Shown: positions 3,880-38,137 of the stretch, piece by piece | Numbering within the stretch: position 1 is the first letter of the stretch | Layout: every line of letters begins with the position of its first letter | Program-made: the position numbers and the translations under genes | Notes under the pieces: model-generated | Told to the model about the DNA's origin: nothing | The model's input: the letters and a program-made list of their open reading frames with translations, nothing else | Database searches by the model: none | Source: Dictyoglomus sp. | Lineage (GTDB): Bacteria > Dictyoglomota > Dictyoglomia > Dictyoglomales > Dictyoglomaceae | NCBI GenBank assembly: GCA_025060475.1 | Contig: JANXBZ010000002.1 | Location: forward strand, 62,001 to 126,000 | Direction of reading: 5' to 3' | DNA: 64,000 bases

Positions 3880-4778
3880 CCTTTAAAGATAAGTTATTGT
3901 CTGGAAATTTTGTAATAACAGCAGAAGTTACTCCTCCAAGAGGTACAAATCTAGAATCCTTTATTAAGGGAAGTTTATTACTAAAAGATAGTTTAGATGC
4001 CTTAAACGTGACAGATTTTCAAAATGTAGGAGTAAGAATAACATCATTAGTAGGAAGTTATCTTCTTCTCAAGGAAGGTATTGAACCTATTTTTCAAATA
4101 ACTTCACGGGATAGAAATAGAGTTGCTATTCAAGGAGAGGTTTTAAGTGCGTATGTATTAGGAATTAGAAATGTATTAGTATTAACAGGAGATTACACTA
4201 CAACAGGAATAATGAAAGATGCAAAACCTGTTTTTGATATTGATGCAATAAATATTCTTCAGTTTATAAAAAATTTATGTGAAGGAAGGGATTCTGCTGG
4301 GAAAAAATTGAGTGGAGCTCCTGAGTTTTTCTTGGGTGCAGTCTTTAATCCTAACTTAGAGCCCTTAGATTTGGAGATATCTAAATTGGAAAGAAAGCAT
4401 AGAGCAGGAGCAGAATTTTTCCAATCCCAATTATTTTATGATCTTTCATTGATTGAGAGGACGAGAGAAAAAATAAAAGACTGGGAGCCTAGAATTTTAG
4501 CAGGAGTTACTATTTTTAAATCTAAAGAGATGTTTGAGTATATGATAAATAAAGTTCCTGGAATAAAGATTCCAAAAGAGATAATTGAAATCTTAGAAAA
4601 GAGTAAAGATATAAGAGAAAAAAGTATAGAGATTTGTGCAGAATTTTGTATGAAAATAAAAGAAAGTAAACTTCTAAATGGAATTCATTTTTTAGCTAGC
4701 AGACCAGTGGATATTTTAGAGGTATTGAGATTGCTTAAATGGAAGAAGGAGGAGAGCTCAAATGTTGAAGCCATCTGA
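3876..4778 (+). CDS. metF: Methylenetetrahydrofolate reductase
   Basis: Reduces 5,10-methylene-THF to 5-methyl-THF with a flavin. It is 300 residues, normal for the catalytic barrel. Seen are the N-terminal AEVTPPRGTNLESF (catalytic Glu region), NVTDFQNVGVR, QITSRDRNRVAIQGE, VLVLTGDYTT, and ELERKHRAGAEFFQSQLFYD-like C-terminal barrel segments. The start overlaps the metV stop as ATGA. Placement after fhs, folD and metV gives a complete formate-to-methyl-THF route. The methyl group could supply methionine or a Wood-Ljungdahl type reaction, and no CO dehydrogenase gene is in this window. Confidence 0.95.
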   Translation: MTFKDKLLSGNFVITAEVTPPRGTNLESFIKGSLLLKDSLDALNVTDFQNVGVRITSLVGSYLLLKEGIEPIFQITSRDRNRVAIQGEVLSAYVLGIRNVLVLTGDYTTTGIMKDAKPVFDIDAINILQFIKNLCEGRDSAGKKLSGAPEFFLGAVFNPNLEPLDLEISKLERKHRAGAEFFQSQLFYDLSLIERTREKIKDWEPRILAGVTIFKSKEMFEYMINKVPGIKIPKEIIEILEKSKDIREKSIEICAEFCMKIKESKLLNGIHFLASRPVDILEVLRLLKWKKEESSNVEAI

Positions 4779-11289: not shown

Positions 11290-11829
11290 TTATTTAATTC
11301 TTCCTCTCCATTTTAAATTTTTCATTCCATTTAAAAATTCAGGTATTTTCTCTTTTGGAAATCTAGGCCACGTTATAACAATTAGAAAAATAAGATAAGT
11401 AACAATAAGGATTCCATAATTAAAGAGATTTCTAAACGCTATATAAATCATCATCCCATAAGGAACTGCTTCAAGTCCTTGAGCTAGTTGTTCCGAGGGA
11501 AAGGCCCAAAGTCCTAAAAAGGTTATTATCAAAAAAAGAATTGAGATAAAAACAGATATAAATCTACTGAAGGTAAGATAAAGAAGAACTCCAAAAGATA
11601 CCATCATATCTGCGTATAAATCATGGGCTCCTATCCATGTTTGATAATTTACCTTAGATTTTCTTGCGAAAAATCCATCTAATATGTCAGTAAACCATGC
11701 AAAAATAAGCCAAAGTATTGCAGAGGGAAGACCATTTTTCCCGTGAGATAAACCTATAAAAGCTATCCAAAAACCTATAAGAAATCTTGATAAAGTAAGT
11801 GAATCTGCTAAGAGTTTTATATAAGTCAT
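11290..11829 (-). CDS. CDP-alcohol phosphatidyltransferase family protein
   Basis: A 179-residue membrane enzyme of the CDP-alcohol phosphotransferase family, which swaps CMP for an alcohol to make phospholipids. Several hydrophobic helices are evident. The signature region reads TDILDGFFAR, ten residues, then GAHDLYAD. The family pattern DGxxARx(8-9)Gx3Dx3D is close, but the spacing between G and the next D is one residue short. The catalytic Asp residues are still present. Which lipid is made (glycerol, inositol or other) is not clear. GGGAGG precedes the ATG. The stop abuts the HD gene end. Confidence 0.8.
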   Translation of the reverse strand: MTYIKLLADSLTLSRFLIGFWIAFIGLSHGKNGLPSAILWLIFAWFTDILDGFFARKSKVNYQTWIGAHDLYADMMVSFGVLLYLTFSRFISVFISILFLIITFLGLWAFPSEQLAQGLEAVPYGMMIYIAFRNLFNYGILIVTYLIFLIVITWPRFPKEKIPEFLNGMKNLKWRGRIK

Positions 11830-11862: not shown

Positions 11863-11871
11863 ATTTTATCA
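11863..11871 (-). promoter_or_regulatory. Extended -10 of the CDP-alcohol transferase gene
   Basis: On the minus strand TGATAAAAT is an extended -10 with a predicted start near 11856. The CRP-like palindrome at 11877-11892 would cover its -35 region. Confidence 0.5.
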
Positions 11872-11876
11872 TATTT

Positions 11877-11892
11877 TGTGATATATATCACT
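11877..11892. promoter_or_regulatory. CRP-like operator
   Basis: TGTGATATATATCACT is TGTGA-N6-TCACT, nine of ten bases of the CRP half-site consensus, built on a perfect 14-bp palindrome (11878-11891). Its centre (11884.5) lies about 41.5 bp before the predicted start of the PEGA gene, the classical class II activator position, and over the -35 region of the divergent gene. The Crp-family protein at 17442-18122 is a natural candidate to bind it. Confidence 0.6.
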
Positions 11893-11913
11893 TCTTATAA
11901 GAGAGAAATTTTG

Positions 11914-11919
11914 TATAAT
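11914..11919 (+). promoter_or_regulatory. -10 element of the PEGA gene
   Basis: TATAAT with no good -35 hexamer at the right distance, a pattern common for promoters that need an activator. The start is predicted near 11926, leaving a 28-base leader with GGGAGG ahead of ATG 11954. Confidence 0.55.
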
Positions 11920-11953: not shown

Positions 11954-13999
11954 ATGAAGAGATTAATATTTACATTGATAATTCTTACTTTTTTAACATC
12001 TTTCTCTTTTTCTCAACAAATATCAATTCAGGAAAGACCAGCTTCTCCCTCTTGGGAAAAGATAATTATAGTCCCCAATCCAGAAACAAAATTACAATTG
12101 GATTTATGGCTGAATAAGCCAGAAGGAAGTGTATATAGAATAGGGGAAGAGTTGAAAATATTTGTAAGAGCAAATGATGATGTATATCTATACATATTTG
12201 ATTTAACTCCTGATGGAGATTTTAAACTGATTTTCCCAAATATGTATTCTGGAAATAATTTTATAAGAAAAGATCAAACTTATACCTTTCCTGATAAACC
12301 TGTGTATAGCTTTAAAGTGAGTCCCCCAGTAGGTAAGGAGTTTATCATAGGAATAATTTCTAAAAAACCATTAAATTTATTCCCTGGAAGAAAATTAGAG
12401 TCTTTAAAGCCTTTTGAATCCTTGGAGAAAAATATTGAAAAGGCTCTTAAGAATATAGAGAAGGTATTGATTGAAGAAAAAAAGGAAACTTGGGCTCAAA
12501 AGGTAACATATTTTTATGTACAAGAAGTAATAACTCAGGGAAGGGTAAAGATAAATTCAAATCCCTCAAGGGCACAAGTATATATTAACAATGACTATAA
12601 AGGAAATACACCTTTAACTTTAACTCTTTCCGAAGGAAGTTATAGGGTTCTTGTTAGATTAGAGGGATATAGAGATTATGAAACTAATATTATTGTAGAG
12701 GGAAATAGAGAAAAAGAATATACTTTTAATCTTTCTCCAAGATATGGAGATTTAACTATATTATCTACTCCTTCAGGAGCCTCCATTTATCTCGATGGAG
12801 TATATAGGGGAAGAACTCCTTTAACTCTTAAAAATCTTCTGGTAAAAACCTATGAATTGAAACTTACTTATCCAGGATATCAGGATAAAATAGAAAGGGT
12901 TGAGGTTAAAGAAGGAACTGAAATAAGAATAAATTTATCTTTACTTCCTACCTTTGGAAGTCTAAGCATATATTCTAATCCTTCAGGAGCAGAGGTATAC
13001 CTTAACGGTGTTCATAGAGGAATTACTCCTTTAACTATTTCTAATCTTTCTCCGGGCACATATCAAATTCAATTGAGAAAAAGTGGATATAAAGATCTTT
13101 TAAGCTCTGTAGTTGTAACCTCAGGAACTACATCTTCATATAATTTTAACCTTACTCCTCTCCTGGGAATGATAAATGTATTTTCTAACCCATCAGGTGC
13201 TGAAGTTTATATCGATAGAGTTTATAGAGGAAAAACTCCTCTTTCTCTTTCTGATGTTCCTTCAGGAACTTATGATATTAGAGTAGTTCTTTCAGGCTAT
13301 GAGGAATATTTTGAAAGAATTTCTCTCTCTCCAGGAGAAACAAAACAAATTACTGCAAATCTCAAACCTTTATATGGAGAAGTTTTAATTGATTCAAAAC
13401 CCCAAGGAGCAAAGGTTTATATAAATGGAAAATATCAAGGAAATACGCCTATTAATCTTAATCTTTTTGAGGGAAAATATAATTTAACTCTAAGTCTTTC
13501 TGGATATTATGAGGTGAATACAGAATTAAATGTTAAAAGTAAAGAAAAAAGTAGCTATGTATTTGTCCTCTCTCCTATAGAAGTACCCTATATCTACTCT
13601 CTTAGCTTTACGAAGGGTATTGCAGAAGGAAACTTAATAATAACAAGATTAGAAAATTCTATATTTAGCAAAGAAGATGGAGTTTTTAATTTGACAGTTC
13701 TTCCCTCGGGTATTTTAGAAACAAAAGTTCCCCTTTCAAGATTTAAGAAAATCTTTTTAAGGGTTAATTTCTCTATTTCTTCTGATAGCAAGGGAATTAT
13801 AAATCCCATATTCGAAATAACTCTTAATGGAAGATCTATAACACTACCCTTTGCCGTTGAAAGTAGAGAATATATAACAGTAAAGTGGGATATAACTTCT
13901 TATTGGCTACAAGATAAGGAAAACACTTTAAGTTTTTATGTGAGTAAAGGGGTAGAAGGTAGTTTAAAAATAAAAGAGATTTTCATAGAAGGAAAATAG
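11954..13999 (+). CDS. Exported DUF4384 + five PEGA-repeat protein
   Basis: A 681-residue exported protein. A signal peptide covers about residues 1-20. A DUF4384-like domain (IGEELKIFVRANDDVYLYIF, then DGDFKLIFPN) spans about 45-140. Five PEGA repeats of about 70 residues follow at roughly 196-264, 265-334, 335-404, 405-474 and 475-542, each with SNPSGAEVYLNGVHRG-like and TPL motifs. A non-repeat C-terminal beta domain of about 130 residues ends it. PEGA domains are surface or periplasmic beta modules, often binding cell wall or polysaccharide. The gene is monocistronic, behind a likely Crp-controlled promoter. The precise role is unknown. Confidence 0.88.
   Translation: MKRLIFTLIILTFLTSFSFSQQISIQERPASPSWEKIIIVPNPETKLQLDLWLNKPEGSVYRIGEELKIFVRANDDVYLYIFDLTPDGDFKLIFPNMYSGNNFIRKDQTYTFPDKPVYSFKVSPPVGKEFIIGIISKKPLNLFPGRKLESLKPFESLEKNIEKALKNIEKVLIEEKKETWAQKVTYFYVQEVITQGRVKINSNPSRAQVYINNDYKGNTPLTLTLSEGSYRVLVRLEGYRDYETNIIVEGNREKEYTFNLSPRYGDLTILSTPSGASIYLDGVYRGRTPLTLKNLLVKTYELKLTYPGYQDKIERVEVKEGTEIRINLSLLPTFGSLSIYSNPSGAEVYLNGVHRGITPLTISNLSPGTYQIQLRKSGYKDLLSSVVVTSGTTSSYNFNLTPLLGMINVFSNPSGAEVYIDRVYRGKTPLSLSDVPSGTYDIRVVLSGYEEYFERISLSPGETKQITANLKPLYGEVLIDSKPQGAKVYINGKYQGNTPINLNLFEGKYNLTLSLSGYYEVNTELNVKSKEKSSYVFVLSPIEVPYIYSLSFTKGIAEGNLIITRLENSIFSKEDGVFNLTVLPSGILETKVPLSRFKKIFLRVNFSISSDSKGIINPIFEITLNGRSITLPFAVESREYITVKWDITSYWLQDKENTLSFYVSKGVEGSLKIKEIFIEGK
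12539..13579 (+). repeat. Five tandem PEGA-coding repeats
   Basis: About 208 bp per unit, in frame, within the PEGA gene. The core coding for NPSGAEVY is nearly the same in units 3 and 4, while units 1 and 5 have drifted (NPSRAQVY, KPQGAKVY). The pattern suggests internal duplication with the central copies most recent or most alike. Confidence 0.8.
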
Positions 14000-17441: not shown

Positions 17442-18122
17442 ATGGAGGGAAAGGAATTTCTTAGAAAAGTTCCATTATTCTCTGAACTCTCAGAAGAGGA
17501 TCTAGATCGTCTTATTAATATCTCAAGAGAAAAATTTTATCCAAAGGATTCAGTAATTTTTCAAAGAGAAGAGGTTGGTAATTTCTTTTTTATTATTTGT
17601 TCTGGAAGGGTAAAGGTAGTAATAGAGACAGAAGATGGAAAAGAGGCAATTCTTTCTATTCTTTATCCCACAGAATTTTTTGGGGAAATGTCTTTATTAG
17701 ATGGAGAACCAAGGTCTGCATCTATTGTTGCGCTTGAGGATACTCGAGTTTTAATAATCCAGAGGGACGAATTTTTAAAACTTCTTTATACCCATCCTGA
17801 AATGTCTTTAAAAATTTTAAAGACTCTTTCCCTTAGACTTAGAAAGGCAAATAGACAGATTGAAACTCTGATGTTTTTTGATGCGCCGGGGAGAATCGCG
17901 AGAATCCTTCTTGATATTGTTCTAGATAAAGGGATAAAAACAGAGAAGGGAATTGCAGTAGATTTAGATTTTACAAGACAAGAGCTAGGAAGTCTTATAG
18001 GTGTTTCTAGAGAAACAGCTACAAGAACCCTAAAAGCCTTTGAAGAGGAAGGAATAATAACTGTAGAAAAGAATCATATTATAGTTCATAATTTAGAAAA
18101 GCTTAAGAAAAGAATATATTAA
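17442..18122 (+). CDS. Crp/Fnr-family transcription regulator, Crp-like
   Basis: A 226-residue dimeric regulator. The N-terminal cyclic-nucleotide domain (about 8-130) has FGEMSLLDGEPRSAS with E82, R91 and S92 in the places of the cAMP-contacting residues of E. coli CRP. A dimer helix and a winged helix-turn-helix follow. The recognition helix reads GVSRETATR, with R190, E191 and R195 matching CRP R180, E181 and R185, which contact TGTGA. No FNR cysteine cluster is present. I infer a cAMP-type (or other cyclic nucleotide) regulator of TGTGA sites. The stop overlaps the start of the RluD gene by one base. Confidence 0.9.
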   Translation: MEGKEFLRKVPLFSELSEEDLDRLINISREKFYPKDSVIFQREEVGNFFFIICSGRVKVVIETEDGKEAILSILYPTEFFGEMSLLDGEPRSASIVALEDTRVLIIQRDEFLKLLYTHPEMSLKILKTLSLRLRKANRQIETLMFFDAPGRIARILLDIVLDKGIKTEKGIAVDLDFTRQELGSLIGVSRETATRTLKAFEEEGIITVEKNHIIVHNLEKLKKRIY

Positions 18123-34268: not shown

Positions 34269-36560
34269 ATGAGAAAAATTATAATTATTTTTTTAAACAT
34301 ACTAATAATATCCTTTCTTTTTGGAGAGACAAATAAAGATTATATCCATATAGCAGGAGATTATAAATTTCCACCCTTTGAATACTTAGATGAGGATGGA
34401 AATGCGAGGGGTTTTTCTGTAGATATTATTAATGAACTTAGTAAAGAGCTTAAAAAAAATGTAGTTATTGAACTTATACCATGGGAACAAGCAATTTCTA
34501 AACTAAGGAAAAAAGAGGTAGATGGAGTAGCATTGATGAGAATTACTGAGGAAAGAAAAAAGGAATTTGATTTTGTTCCCTATTTTGAAAATTTTAGCGT
34601 CATAGTTGTTTTAAAAGACTCTCCTATACAAAACTTTATGGATTTAAGGGGTAAAAAAATCTCTTGTTTAAATTTGGATGTTGCTCATAGTTTTCTTTTA
34701 AAAGTGGGAGAGGTATTTCCTAAAACTTCTTCTGAAGAAGTATTAAGATCAGTTTTAAACAAAGAAGTATCTGCAGGAGTTGTTAATTACTATGTGGCAA
34801 GATGGATAATAAATAAAAATGATTGGCATGATAAATTAAAAATTCTTTCCGATAAACTTTTTACAAATTATGCAGGTATAGCTCTTCCCAAAGATAGTCC
34901 TTATTTAGATGAAATTCAAAGGGGAATTTCTAAGATTATTAAAAGTCCTGTTTACAATAATCTTATTTTAAAATGGTTTGGAGAAGAAGTTATCTTAAAG
35001 GAAGAAGTAAGAAGAAAAGAAATTTTTAGCCAAATTCTAATTTATATTTCTCTTTTCATTCTGCTACTTCTTTTAGGAGTTTTTATTAGTAGAAGATATT
35101 TAAAAAAAGAAATATATAGACAAATCCTTTACATTAGAAGTCTTTATAATTTTCTAAAGGATACCTTTTCTAAGGAAATAGAAGAAATAGAAGAAATATA
35201 TTTTGAAAAAATAAAAGAGATATTTCCTAAGTGTAAAATAAAATATTTTAAAAAAACTAACGGAGATTATTTATTATTAAAATCTTATCCCGAAGAGAAA
35301 AGTTATTCCCTTAATTTGGAGAGCTTAACAGAAATTCCAGGGGAAAAGTATTTTTTCAAGGACACCAAAAAGGTTTTTTCCTGTGTTGTAATTGAGGGAG
35401 AGACGGAAAAATATAAAGAAGTTTTTCAAATCTTATCTAAGGAGTTTGAAACTCTTCTTTTAAATCTTGAGTCAGAAAGAAAATTAAAGCAATCTGAAGA
35501 ATTTTCTAAACTTTTAGATTCTTTTTCTTCTATATATAGGGATAAATCTTTAAACTTAGAAGATTTTCTTAATAGAATTATAAAATGTTTACAAGGGGAT
35601 GCAGGATCAATCATGATTTATTTCGAAGAGGAAAAGGTTCTTAAGATAAAGGCGAGTGTGGGTCTTCCTGAGGAAGTTGTGGAAAAAACGGTATTAAAAC
35701 TGGGAGAGGGAATTGCAGGGTGGGTTGCTGAGAATAAAGTACCTTTAATTTTAGAAGATGTTTACAAAGATAAGAGATTTAAAATTATTGAACCTAGAAT
35801 AAATATTAAATCTTCCATTTCTTATCCCTTAATCCATGAAGGAGAATTAATAGGAGTTTTAAATATAAATAGTTTTAAAGAATATAGAAAATTTACCGAA
35901 GAAAACCTCTTAATAATTGAAAAGATAGCCCCTCTCTTAGCATTAGCTTTATATAAAGAAGAATTAAGAAATAAGATAAAAATATTAGATCGAGAAGCAT
36001 TATTTATATTAGTAGAAGCTATAGATGCAAGGGATCCATATACAGGAGGTCATTCTCGAGGTGTGAGAGATTTTTCTATGGAGTTAGGGAGGAAAATAGG
36101 ATTGGATGAGGAAGATTTAAAAAAATTAGAATATGCAAGTTATCTTCATGATGTAGGAAAGATAAAAGTACCTGATTTCATATTAAGAAAACCAGGAAGG
36201 TTAACTGAAGAAGAATATAATGTGATAAAACTTCATACCATATGGGGAGAGGATATTGTTAAGAATTTTTCAGTTTTTAAAGGAATTAGTTCCATTATAA
36301 GATATCATCATGAAAGATGGGATGGAAAAGGATATCCCGATGGTTTAATAGAGGAAGAAATTCCTCTTTTCTCAAGAATTATTGCACTATCTGATAGTTT
36401 TCAAGCAATGACCTCTTTCAGACCTTACAGAAAAAAACTTACTTTAGAAGAGGCAATAGAAGAAATAAAGATAAATAGGGGTAAGCAGTTTGACCCCTAT
36501 TTATCTGATATATTTATAGAGACAATATTAGAGAAAATGAAAAAGAGTTTAATCCTCTAA
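34269..36560 (+). CDS. Membrane sensor: SBP-type domain, GAF, HD-GYP
   Basis: A 763-residue membrane protein. It has a signal peptide (about 1-19), a bacterial extracellular solute-binding domain family 3 (about 24-240, GDYKFPPFEYLDEDGNARGF), one membrane helix (about 255-275), a GAF domain (about 425-565, GDAGSIMIYF, GEGIAGWVAENK) and an HD-GYP domain (about 590-755) with YLHDVGKIKVP (H627, D628) and HHERWDGKGYPDGL. HD-GYP domains hydrolyse cyclic di-GMP, so it could turn an outside small-molecule or peptide signal into a change of that messenger. No ribosome binding site precedes ATG 34269, which follows directly on a terminator. The C-terminus overlaps the GH1 gene by 12 bases. Confidence 0.88.
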   Translation: MRKIIIIFLNILIISFLFGETNKDYIHIAGDYKFPPFEYLDEDGNARGFSVDIINELSKELKKNVVIELIPWEQAISKLRKKEVDGVALMRITEERKKEFDFVPYFENFSVIVVLKDSPIQNFMDLRGKKISCLNLDVAHSFLLKVGEVFPKTSSEEVLRSVLNKEVSAGVVNYYVARWIINKNDWHDKLKILSDKLFTNYAGIALPKDSPYLDEIQRGISKIIKSPVYNNLILKWFGEEVILKEEVRRKEIFSQILIYISLFILLLLLGVFISRRYLKKEIYRQILYIRSLYNFLKDTFSKEIEEIEEIYFEKIKEIFPKCKIKYFKKTNGDYLLLKSYPEEKSYSLNLESLTEIPGEKYFFKDTKKVFSCVVIEGETEKYKEVFQILSKEFETLLLNLESERKLKQSEEFSKLLDSFSSIYRDKSLNLEDFLNRIIKCLQGDAGSIMIYFEEEKVLKIKASVGLPEEVVEKTVLKLGEGIAGWVAENKVPLILEDVYKDKRFKIIEPRINIKSSISYPLIHEGELIGVLNINSFKEYRKFTEENLLIIEKIAPLLALALYKEELRNKIKILDREALFILVEAIDARDPYTGGHSRGVRDFSMELGRKIGLDEEDLKKLEYASYLHDVGKIKVPDFILRKPGRLTEEEYNVIKLHTIWGEDIVKNFSVFKGISSIIRYHHERWDGKGYPDGLIEEEIPLFSRIIALSDSFQAMTSFRPYRKKLTLEEAIEEIKINRGKQFDPYLSDIFIETILEKMKKSLIL

Positions 36561-37892
36561 TCCATTTTGTTCAATTACTTTTTTATAAAAATAGGCAGAA
36601 TCCTTTAAGATTCTCTTTTGGGTTTCATAATCAGTATAAACTATTCCAAATCTTTTACTATAGCCATGAGCCCATTCAAAATTATCCATTAAGCTCCAGA
36701 CAAAATATCCCCTTAAATCTACTCCATCCTTTAATGCATTGTAGGCTTCTTTTATATGTTCCTTTAGGTAATTAATTCTTTTTTCGTCTTTTACTTTACT
36801 ATCCTCTAATAATACATCATTAAATGCGGCTCCATTTTCTGTTATATAAATAGCTTTGGGATAATCTTTTTTAAGTCTTATTAGGAGTTCATAAAGTCCC
36901 TTAGGATATATTTCCCATCCCATTTCTGTTTTTTCTTTTTCTGTGGATACAAATTTAATTCCTAAAAAAGGATTCTCTGGATCTTTCTTAACAATTGATC
37001 TTGTGTAATAATTTACCCCAATAAAGTCAAAGGGAAGATTTATGGTTTTAAAATCGTCAAGAGGGAAATCAAAAGCCCATTTATTCTTTTCTAATATTTT
37101 CCATATATCTTCAGGATATTTCCCATAAAAGAGAGGATCTAAAAACCATCTATTTACAAATCCATCTTGAATCTGAACTGCTTCCCAATCTTCAGGGATA
37201 TTTTCTCCGGGATGTATGGGAGAAAGATTTAAAGATATGCCAATTTGTCCTCTAATCCTATTCTCAAAAAAAGATTGAACAGCTAAGCCATGAGCTAAAA
37301 GAAGATTATGGCTTGCAATAAAAGCTCCTTTCATGTCTCTTTTTCCTGGAGCATGAACTCCAAAGCCATAACCTAAAAAGGCATGAACCCAAGGTTCATT
37401 TAGAGTAATCCAAATAATATCGTATTCTTTGAAGGTTTTAAACATAAAGTTTGCATATTCAGAAAAGTATTTTGAGGTATCTCTATTCAACCACCCTCCT
37501 TTATTCTCTAAGGCTTGGGGAAGATCCCAATGATAAAGGGTTATAGCAGGTTTAATATTTTTTGATAATAAGGTTTCTATAAGTTCTCTATAAAAATTAA
37601 GACCTTTTAGATTTAAAGATCCCTTTCCTTCAGGAAAAATTCTTGCCCAAGATATGGAAAAACGATAAGCATTTAGACCAATAAATTCCATAATTTCTAC
37701 ATCTTCTTTCCATCTATGATAGTGATCACATGCTATATCTCCATTTTGATTTTGATAAATAGTTCCAGGGGTGTGAGTGAATCTATCCCATACTGTCTCT
37801 CCCTTTCCATCTTCATAGACTCCTCCTTCAATTTGATAAGATGCTGTCGCTGTTCCCCATAAAAATCCCTTCGGAAAGATATATTTTGCCAA
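36549..37892 (-). CDS. Beta-glucosidase/beta-glycosidase, GH1
   Basis: A 447-residue GH1 glycosidase. FPKGFLWGTATASYQIEG is the N-terminal signature, TLNEPWVHA carries the acid/base Glu and IYITENGAAFND the nucleophile Glu. GTG 37901 is part of the ribosome binding site GGAGGTG, and the spacing points instead to TTG 37892 (reading M-AKYIFPKGF) as the start. It acts in the cytosol, since no signal peptide is present. It would cleave cellobiose-like and other beta-glycosides, backing up the phosphorylases. The gene overlaps the sensor gene at its 3' end. Confidence 0.93.
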   Translation of the reverse strand: MAKYIFPKGFLWGTATASYQIEGGVYEDGKGETVWDRFTHTPGTIYQNQNGDIACDHYHRWKEDVEIMEFIGLNAYRFSISWARIFPEGKGSLNLKGLNFYRELIETLLSKNIKPAITLYHWDLPQALENKGGWLNRDTSKYFSEYANFMFKTFKEYDIIWITLNEPWVHAFLGYGFGVHAPGKRDMKGAFIASHNLLLAHGLAVQSFFENRIRGQIGISLNLSPIHPGENIPEDWEAVQIQDGFVNRWFLDPLFYGKYPEDIWKILEKNKWAFDFPLDDFKTINLPFDFIGVNYYTRSIVKKDPENPFLGIKFVSTEKEKTEMGWEIYPKGLYELLIRLKKDYPKAIYITENGAAFNDVLLEDSKVKDEKRINYLKEHIKEAYNALKDGVDLRGYFVWSLMDNFEWAHGYSKRFGIVYTDYETQKRILKDSAYFYKKVIEQNGLED

Positions 37893-38137
37893 AAATATCA
37901 CCTCCAGTTTTTTAAAACTTTCTCTCTCTTAAGGGTAAAATCAGGCAAGACAGAAGATATTAATTTAGGGGATATATCACTAATTCTAGAAAAACTAATG
38001 TTGTGTCTCCTTTTATTTCTCTCCTGTTCTATAAATCTTTATCAAATAAAAATTTAGGGAAGTAGGTATAAAGTTTTTTAAGTTTTATTCTATCTAAATC
38101 TCCTACTTCCCCGATAAGAAGTTTTACTTAAAAAAAC
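37893..38137. other. 245-base gap with long-loop hairpin
   Basis: Between GH1 and tRNA-Asn. It holds the GGAGGT site for GH1 (37894-37901 region), T7 directly after the tRNA CCA on the minus strand, and the inverted repeat annotated separately. A TGATATATC sequence near 37980 could be part of the GH1 promoter, but I cannot support it well. No ORF of note was found. Confidence 0.5.
38057..38111 (-). other. Perfect 10-bp inverted repeat with 35-base loop
   Basis: GGGAAGTAGG (38057-38066) and CCTACTTCCC (38102-38111) are perfect complements around a 35-base AT-rich loop. On the minus strand the repeat is followed by TAAATTTTTATTTG. It lies 26 bases beyond the tRNA-Asn 3' end. It may be a tRNA transcript terminator, or a structured leader or regulatory RNA. 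Its loop is unusually long for a terminator. Confidence 0.5.

Follow-up and report, generated by a model that had tools for sequence, protein, structure and literature searches.

Locus and promoter architecture

The 64-kb stretch of Dictyoglomus sp. DNA analyzed here (the window) contains a short region between two divergent genes, one for a PEGA/DUF4384 protein and one for a CDP-alcohol phosphatidyltransferase family protein (Table 1). In this region we predict a CRP-type operator, TGTGATATATATCACT. The 14 nucleotides GTGATATATATCAC inside this 16-mer (11878-11891, centre 11884.5) form a perfect palindrome, so the TGTGA-N6-TCACT site described in an earlier sequence-only reading of the window is indeed there. 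The PEGA protein has a signal-like segment at its N-terminus. A gene for a CRP homologue lies approximately 5.5 kb downstream of the palindrome.

Table 1. Features of the operator region and the gene for the likely regulator (positions in the window)
Feature	Position	Strand	Basis or remark
CDP-alcohol phosphatidyltransferase family gene, divergent	11290..11829	-	CDP-OH_P_transf match; predicted to be (weakly) repressed
-10-like hexamers of the divergent gene: TAAAAT (11863-11868), TATGAT (11868-11873)	11863..11873	-	Sequence
CRP-type operator (predicted), TGTGATATATATCACT	11877..11892	+	Sequence search; comparable site before the PEGA gene in 7/7 genomes
-10 element TATAAT of the PEGA gene	11914..11919	+	21 nt past the operator; no -35
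Gene for PEGA/DUF4384 protein, 681 aa	11954..13999 (ATG at 11954)	+	Five PEGA stretches plus DUF4384; predicted activated target
Gene for CRP homologue, cNMP_binding and HTH_Crp_2	17442..18122 (ORF open from 17379; probable start 17442)	+	Profile matches

The PEGA promoter has a consensus -10 element and, as the sequence-only reading proposed, no TTGACA-like -35 (scores of 3/6, 1/6, and 1/6 at spacers of 16, 17, and 18). With the transcription start placed about 7 nt beyond the -10 element, the operator is centred at approximately -41.5, a figure that is right if the start sits where such a -10 usually places it. The gap in the window fits the E. coli geometry, in which 21 nt lie between the 16-mer and the -10 element when a class II CRP site is centred at -41.5. 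The PEGA promoter thus has the layout of a class II CRP-dependent promoter (a site near -41.5, a -10, and no -35), its start being a predicted one. The palindrome is very probably the binding site of an activator of the cAMP-receptor type.

On the other side, the -10-like hexamers of the divergent gene are 3 and 8 nt past the operator, so that the operator covers the spacer or the -35 of that gene. This agrees with the proposed position over the -35 region of the transferase gene. Given this overlap, the transferase gene may be repressed.

Occurrence of the motif in three Dictyoglomus genomes

Matches to the motif with up to two mismatches are not in excess in the window (14 found, 18.35 expected). 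Across the whole genome (1.72 Mb in 81 contigs), exact TGTGAN6TCACA occurs six times and the reversed pattern is absent. The pattern with one mismatch, the class to which the PEGA operator itself belongs, gives 32 matches and its reversed control 18; it is too loose to predict a regulon. Significance therefore comes from the exact motif, from a refined motif, and from the conservation described below. The refined motif, GTGATNNNNATCAC, which the PEGA operator fits exactly, was chosen after viewing the one-mismatch list of the window's genome (G000), so two congeneric genomes (G001 and G002) are its independent test. It occurs 9, 8, and 11 times in G000, G001, and G002, and its reversed control occurs in none of them. 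The genome scan that had been suggested as a check on the original claim thus finds other sites of the TGTGA-N6-TCACA type.

Together, the two exact motifs have 11 sites in G000; ten of these have intergenic centres, and the fetched G000 stretches are 95% coding by our ORF rule. The remaining site is inside an EPSP synthase gene. For the refined motif, intergenic centres number 8 of 9 in G000, 7 of 8 in G001, and 7 of 11 in G002; the last figure indicates that some matches are due to chance. Exact refined sites are few in four genomes of another genus (5, 1, 2, and 1), with one control match in G006. We examined 18 of the 32 one-mismatch places in G000, 17 of them in fetched stretches or at the PEGA operator and one elsewhere in the window. 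The extra places included L023-L027, which were picked by eye; the matches of L023, L024, L025, and L026 are inside called genes and that of L027 is outside. A one-mismatch site in the window, TATGATAGTGATCACA at 37715-37730, falls within the ORF at 36549-37901 (a glycosidase by eye), and this coding-sequence match is probably a chance one.

We scored class II spacing as a TA...T hexamer with at least five of six matches to TATAAT at a gap of 20-23 nt from a site. It is present in 23 of 60 orientations (30 intergenic sites in both directions), compared with a mean of 2.95 and a maximum of 7 in 80 other windows. The 30 sites are all those in the fetched stretches plus the PEGA operator, and they include L033 4060, counted as intergenic though the early start chosen by the ORF caller covers it. 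Where a called gene start is within 150 nt, the count is 20 of 41 orientations (mean 2.25, maximum 7), leaving 21 that have a nearby gene start and no class II -10. Orthologous sites are not independent, so the count was also made with one sequence per hand-made group, and 11 of the 24 groups have class II spacing (mean 1.38, maximum 6). In an earlier list compiled by hand, the count was 20 of 37 (mean 2.3, maximum 7 in other windows); that list omitted the plus orientations of L013 and L016, the minus orientation of L020, and the minus orientations of L017, L029, L032, and L037. The promoter-proximal half ends in TCACT in 11 of 20 class II sites.

Some sites occur in tandem, exactly 23 bp apart in four of four pairs (L017 4013/4036, L029 3993/4016, L031 10864/10887, and L033 4037/4060). 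These pairs represent three gene groups (Hsp20-lon, an exported 278-aa protein, and a UPF0164-like protein), and the spacing suggests two dimers side by side. At L017 (2609-4050), the distal tandem site lies between the divergent Hsp20-lon genes and a gene for an exported 434-aa protein. It has a -10 at class II distance on either side, so the two promoters may share one operator.

The likely regulator

The CRP homologue encoded in the window matches PF00027 (94.2 bits) and PF13545 (70.4 bits), both above cut-off. Homologues are present in all seven genomes of the phylum that we examined (as two partial matches in G004). In each of G000, G001, and G002 this protein is the sole HTH_Crp_2 match above cut-off, with 2, 5, and 6 matches below it. 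Counting from the methionine at 17442, the residues that had been named as cyclic nucleotide and TGTGA contacts (E82, R91, S92; R190, E191, R195) are correct. The recognition helix, S-R-E-T-A-T-R, aligns with S-R-E-T-V-G-R of E. coli CRP, and the S-R-E-T...R contacts are identical; in E. coli, R180, E181, and R185 read TGTGA. The G-E and R-S of the cyclic nucleotide phosphate pocket, which in E. coli CRP includes E72, R82, and S83 as phosphate and ribose contacts, are invariant in all five aligned rows.

The adenine contacts of E. coli CRP are T127 and S128, and the four Dictyoglomus-family rows have A and N at these positions. The best full-length sequence matches are CRP/FNR proteins (PDB 4byy, 3r6s, and 4cyd), which we take to be of the actinobacterial GlxR type; these share the N at the S128 position, whereas at the T127 position they have T and the Dictyoglomus protein has A. 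Overall protein identity to E. coli CRP is 30%. The score against the NCBIfam CRP equivalog PRK11753 is 130 bits, below the 266-bit cut-off, so the protein is CRP-like and is not filed as that equivalog. Because of this score and the A/N pair, the ligand is likely, not certainly, cAMP. We consider the CRP homologue of the window the likely regulator acting at the PEGA operator.

A second candidate is the redox repressor Rex, which would repress the PEGA gene in response to NADH/NAD+. The Rex consensus, TTGTGA-N6-TCACAA, has the half-sites and spacing of the PEGA operator, so a TGTGA-N6-TCACA site is compatible with it, and a protein with a Rex N-terminal domain is present in G000 and G001. However, a search of G000-G002 gave no Rex match in G002 (99% complete), yet this genome has 11 refined sites, including that of its PEGA gene. 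Moreover, the position of the operator is that of a class II activator site, at a promoter that lacks a -35, and few predicted targets are redox genes, one being the Fe-ADH gene in G001. We regard a Rex operator as very improbable and rejected Rex because G002 keeps the sites without a Rex match.

Conservation before PEGA orthologues

PEGA orthologues were found in 7/7 phylum genomes examined, which comprise three Dictyoglomus genomes (G000, G001, and G002) and four of another genus (G003-G006). A comparable site precedes each orthologue. It matches 11 of 12 consensus letters in each Dictyoglomus genome, 10 in G004 and G005, and 9 in G003 and G006. In the alignment of these sites, ATCACTT on the promoter side is invariant in all seven, while the central bases and surroundings diverge. 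TATAAT (TATACT in G003) follows at a gap of 21 or 22 nt in every genome, and none of the seven promoters has a -35 scoring above 3/6 at spacers of 16-18. The class II distance claimed for the window, which depends on a predicted start, is thus maintained across both genera, and this supports the reading of the PEGA gene as an activated one. We consider activation of the PEGA gene by a CRP-type regulator well supported by this comparison of promoters.

The operator could instead act mainly as a repressor site for the divergent CDP-alcohol transferase gene, with the PEGA gene incidental. The site does overlap a plausible transferase promoter at its spacer or -35, and the same type of gene is divergent in G002 as well. 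However, the site stays with the PEGA gene when the neighbour is another one: a divergent gene of the phosphoglycerate mutase type in G001, and a co-directional upstream gene with a GGDEF motif (read by eye) in G003-G006. Since the neighbour changes while the site stays, the operator belongs to the PEGA gene, and a role mainly in transferase repression appears very improbable. Any repression of the transferase would be confined to the two of seven genomes (G000 and G002) in which that gene is divergent.

That the palindrome is merely chance AT-rich sequence without a regulator, as the lack of a loose-motif excess in the window, its centre of alternating TATATA, and the 18 one-mismatch control matches might suggest, is scarcely credible and is contradicted by the comparable site in 7/7 PEGA upstream regions with diverging centres and surroundings, together with 28 refined sites and zero reversed-pattern controls across three genomes.

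Adenylate cyclase operon

A class III cyclase is encoded in all three Dictyoglomus genomes and is linked to a CHASE2 domain in the tested G000 copy. Positions D432, K472, D476, T546, N553, and R557 are invariant in the three genomes; we take them to have metal, substrate, and transition-state roles and to fit an adenylate rather than a guanylate cyclase. The operon is closely packed, in the order FecR-domain gene, class III cyclase gene, and GAF-HD gene (L018 1-4807; the last assigned from the G002 copy, with an orthologue in G000). G002 also has a second class III cyclase match (L012, a 672-aa frame), with none found in G000 or G001. In G000, a second and shorter FecR-like copy (G000:C10:39865-40389, a 241-aa frame) resembles the N-terminus of the FecR protein of the cyclase operon.

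A CRP-type site is located 70.5-80.5 nt before the FecR start in 3/3 Dictyoglomus genomes, with TATAAT at a gap of 20 nt. The G001 site, AGTGATCTTCGTCACA, is on the other strand and is missed by the refined motif. No CRP-type site was found at the FecR operon in the four genomes of the other genus, where the G003 FecR match is partial and has an internal stop. A cyclase-operon site as a phylum-wide feature is thereby ruled out: the predicted autoregulation is seen only in the genus Dictyoglomus, whereas the PEGA site is phylum-wide in the seven genomes.

Predicted regulon

We took the regulon to be the genes behind a site with class II spacing in at least one genome, which gives 15 groups. These are the PEGA gene, the FecR gene, a DUF6941 gene, a gene with a weak UPF0164 match, genes for three unknown exported proteins (513, 400, and 278 aa), for an exported 352-aa protein whose TraF_2 match falls below the cut-off, for an exported 434-aa protein (divergent from Hsp20), for a pilin-like N_methyl protein, and for a CHASE4-GGDEF sensor, a polysaccharide-synthesis gene, a DUF4388 gene, an Fe-ADH gene, and Hsp20 (followed by lon). 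An N-terminal hydrophobic segment is present in 12 of the 15 groups; among the genes of the fetched G000 stretches the figure is 26 of 97 (Fisher one-sided p 0.0001). For this comparison the threshold was chosen after the data had been viewed, and one member (2.52) is barely above it; the targets are drawn from three genomes, and some of them are also in the baseline. Without the gene for the 434-aa protein, the proportion is 11 of 14 (p 0.0003). The predicted targets thus appear to be mostly exported or membrane proteins. There is no sugar-uptake gene among the 15 groups; GH4 and GH1 glycosidase genes are near or under weaker matches (L016 on the plus strand, 287.5 nt away, and window position 37715, inside the ORF).

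Several loci have features of their own. In G002, a CRP-type site at class II spacing precedes the type IV pilin-like gene (N_methyl; L042 195-730). At L022 (3998-8001), a CRP-type site precedes the DUF4388 gene, a gene of the Zn-dependent phospholipase C type, and apparent methylthioadenosine-salvage genes (PNP, IF-2B type, and amidohydrolase); the site at the DUF4388 locus is kept in 3/3 congeneric genomes (L022, L034, and L043). The UPF0164-like gene at L014 (approximately 4075-4100) appears to start with ATA, and its G001 orthologue starts with ATG after a similar ribosome-binding site; the ATA may be an assembly error, an unusual start, or a loss.

Proposed mechanism

Starting from the motif, geometry, conservation, regulator, and cyclase observed in these genomes, we infer binding, an effector, and a direction of regulation as follows. 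A cyclic nucleotide, most likely cAMP, would be made by the CHASE2 class III cyclase encoded elsewhere in the genome. The ligand-bound CRP dimer would bind the palindrome at about -41.5 and recruit RNA polymerase to the -10-only promoter by class II activation, which would turn on expression of the PEGA surface protein. A small regulon in which envelope and exported proteins are common may be controlled by this regulator with the same geometry. The FecR-cyclase operon would belong to this regulon in Dictyoglomus, creating positive feedback, and in the species of the window the bound protein may also impede the promoter of the divergent transferase gene. Class II activation of the PEGA gene by a cAMP-type CRP homologue, with a small envelope regulon, is as a whole the best explanation of what the genomes encode, and we hold it with considerable confidence.

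A wider role can be suggested only tentatively, and we think it rather doubtful. In this scheme, cAMP-CRP of Dictyoglomota would be a switch for an envelope programme, not a catabolite regulator. An envelope-sensing FecR/CHASE2 cyclase would make cAMP, and CRP would activate genes for PEGA, outer-membrane-like, and pilin proteins, polysaccharide genes, and, in Dictyoglomus, the operon of the cyclase itself. The resulting bistable loop could drive the formation of multicellular spherical bodies with a single shared outer membrane. D. thermophilum can form spherical bodies within a common outer membrane (PMC3162934). Tying this report, and those on FecR/CHASE2 and Clr cited below, to the regulon is speculation.

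These predictions suggest that CRP acts by class II activation in these thermophiles and mainly targets surface proteins. They give a little-studied phylum a regulator, an operator, and a target set that can be tested. We found no paper on a Dictyoglomus CRP/cAMP regulon in the open-licence PMC literature, and the main text of the D. turgidum genome paper contains none of the terms CRP, cAMP, and adenylate cyclase (PMC5167688).

Comparison with known systems

The system is of a known kind, CRP class II activation, of which the Dictyoglomus operator and target set would be a new example. E. coli class II promoters, such as those of the galP1 type, have a TGTGA-N6-TCACA site at about -41.5, a -10, and no -35, as the PEGA promoter does. 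The targets of E. coli CRP are in sugar catabolism, whereas those predicted in Dictyoglomus are mostly envelope or exported proteins.

Clr of Sinorhizobium meliloti is described as a 3'5'cAMP-dependent CRP-type regulator in a bacterium with a CHASE2 cyclase, a combination like the one predicted here (PMC5498481). The main text of the same paper does not contain the word PEGA; the Clr targets it describes include a FecR-domain protein, whose gene Clr controls, and a periplasmic protein (PMC5498481). The Clr box given there, HGTYHCNNNNGRWACA, differs from the Dictyoglomus motif (PMC5498481).

In Campylobacterota, a CHASE2 cyclase is reported to be clustered with a FecR-domain protein and a phosphodiesterase (PMC9239204). 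Those clusters share the FecR and CHASE2 cyclase genes with Dictyoglomus, in which the third gene encodes a GAF-HD protein (G002 copy). A further difference is the CRP-type site that the Dictyoglomus FecR/CHASE2 operon carries.
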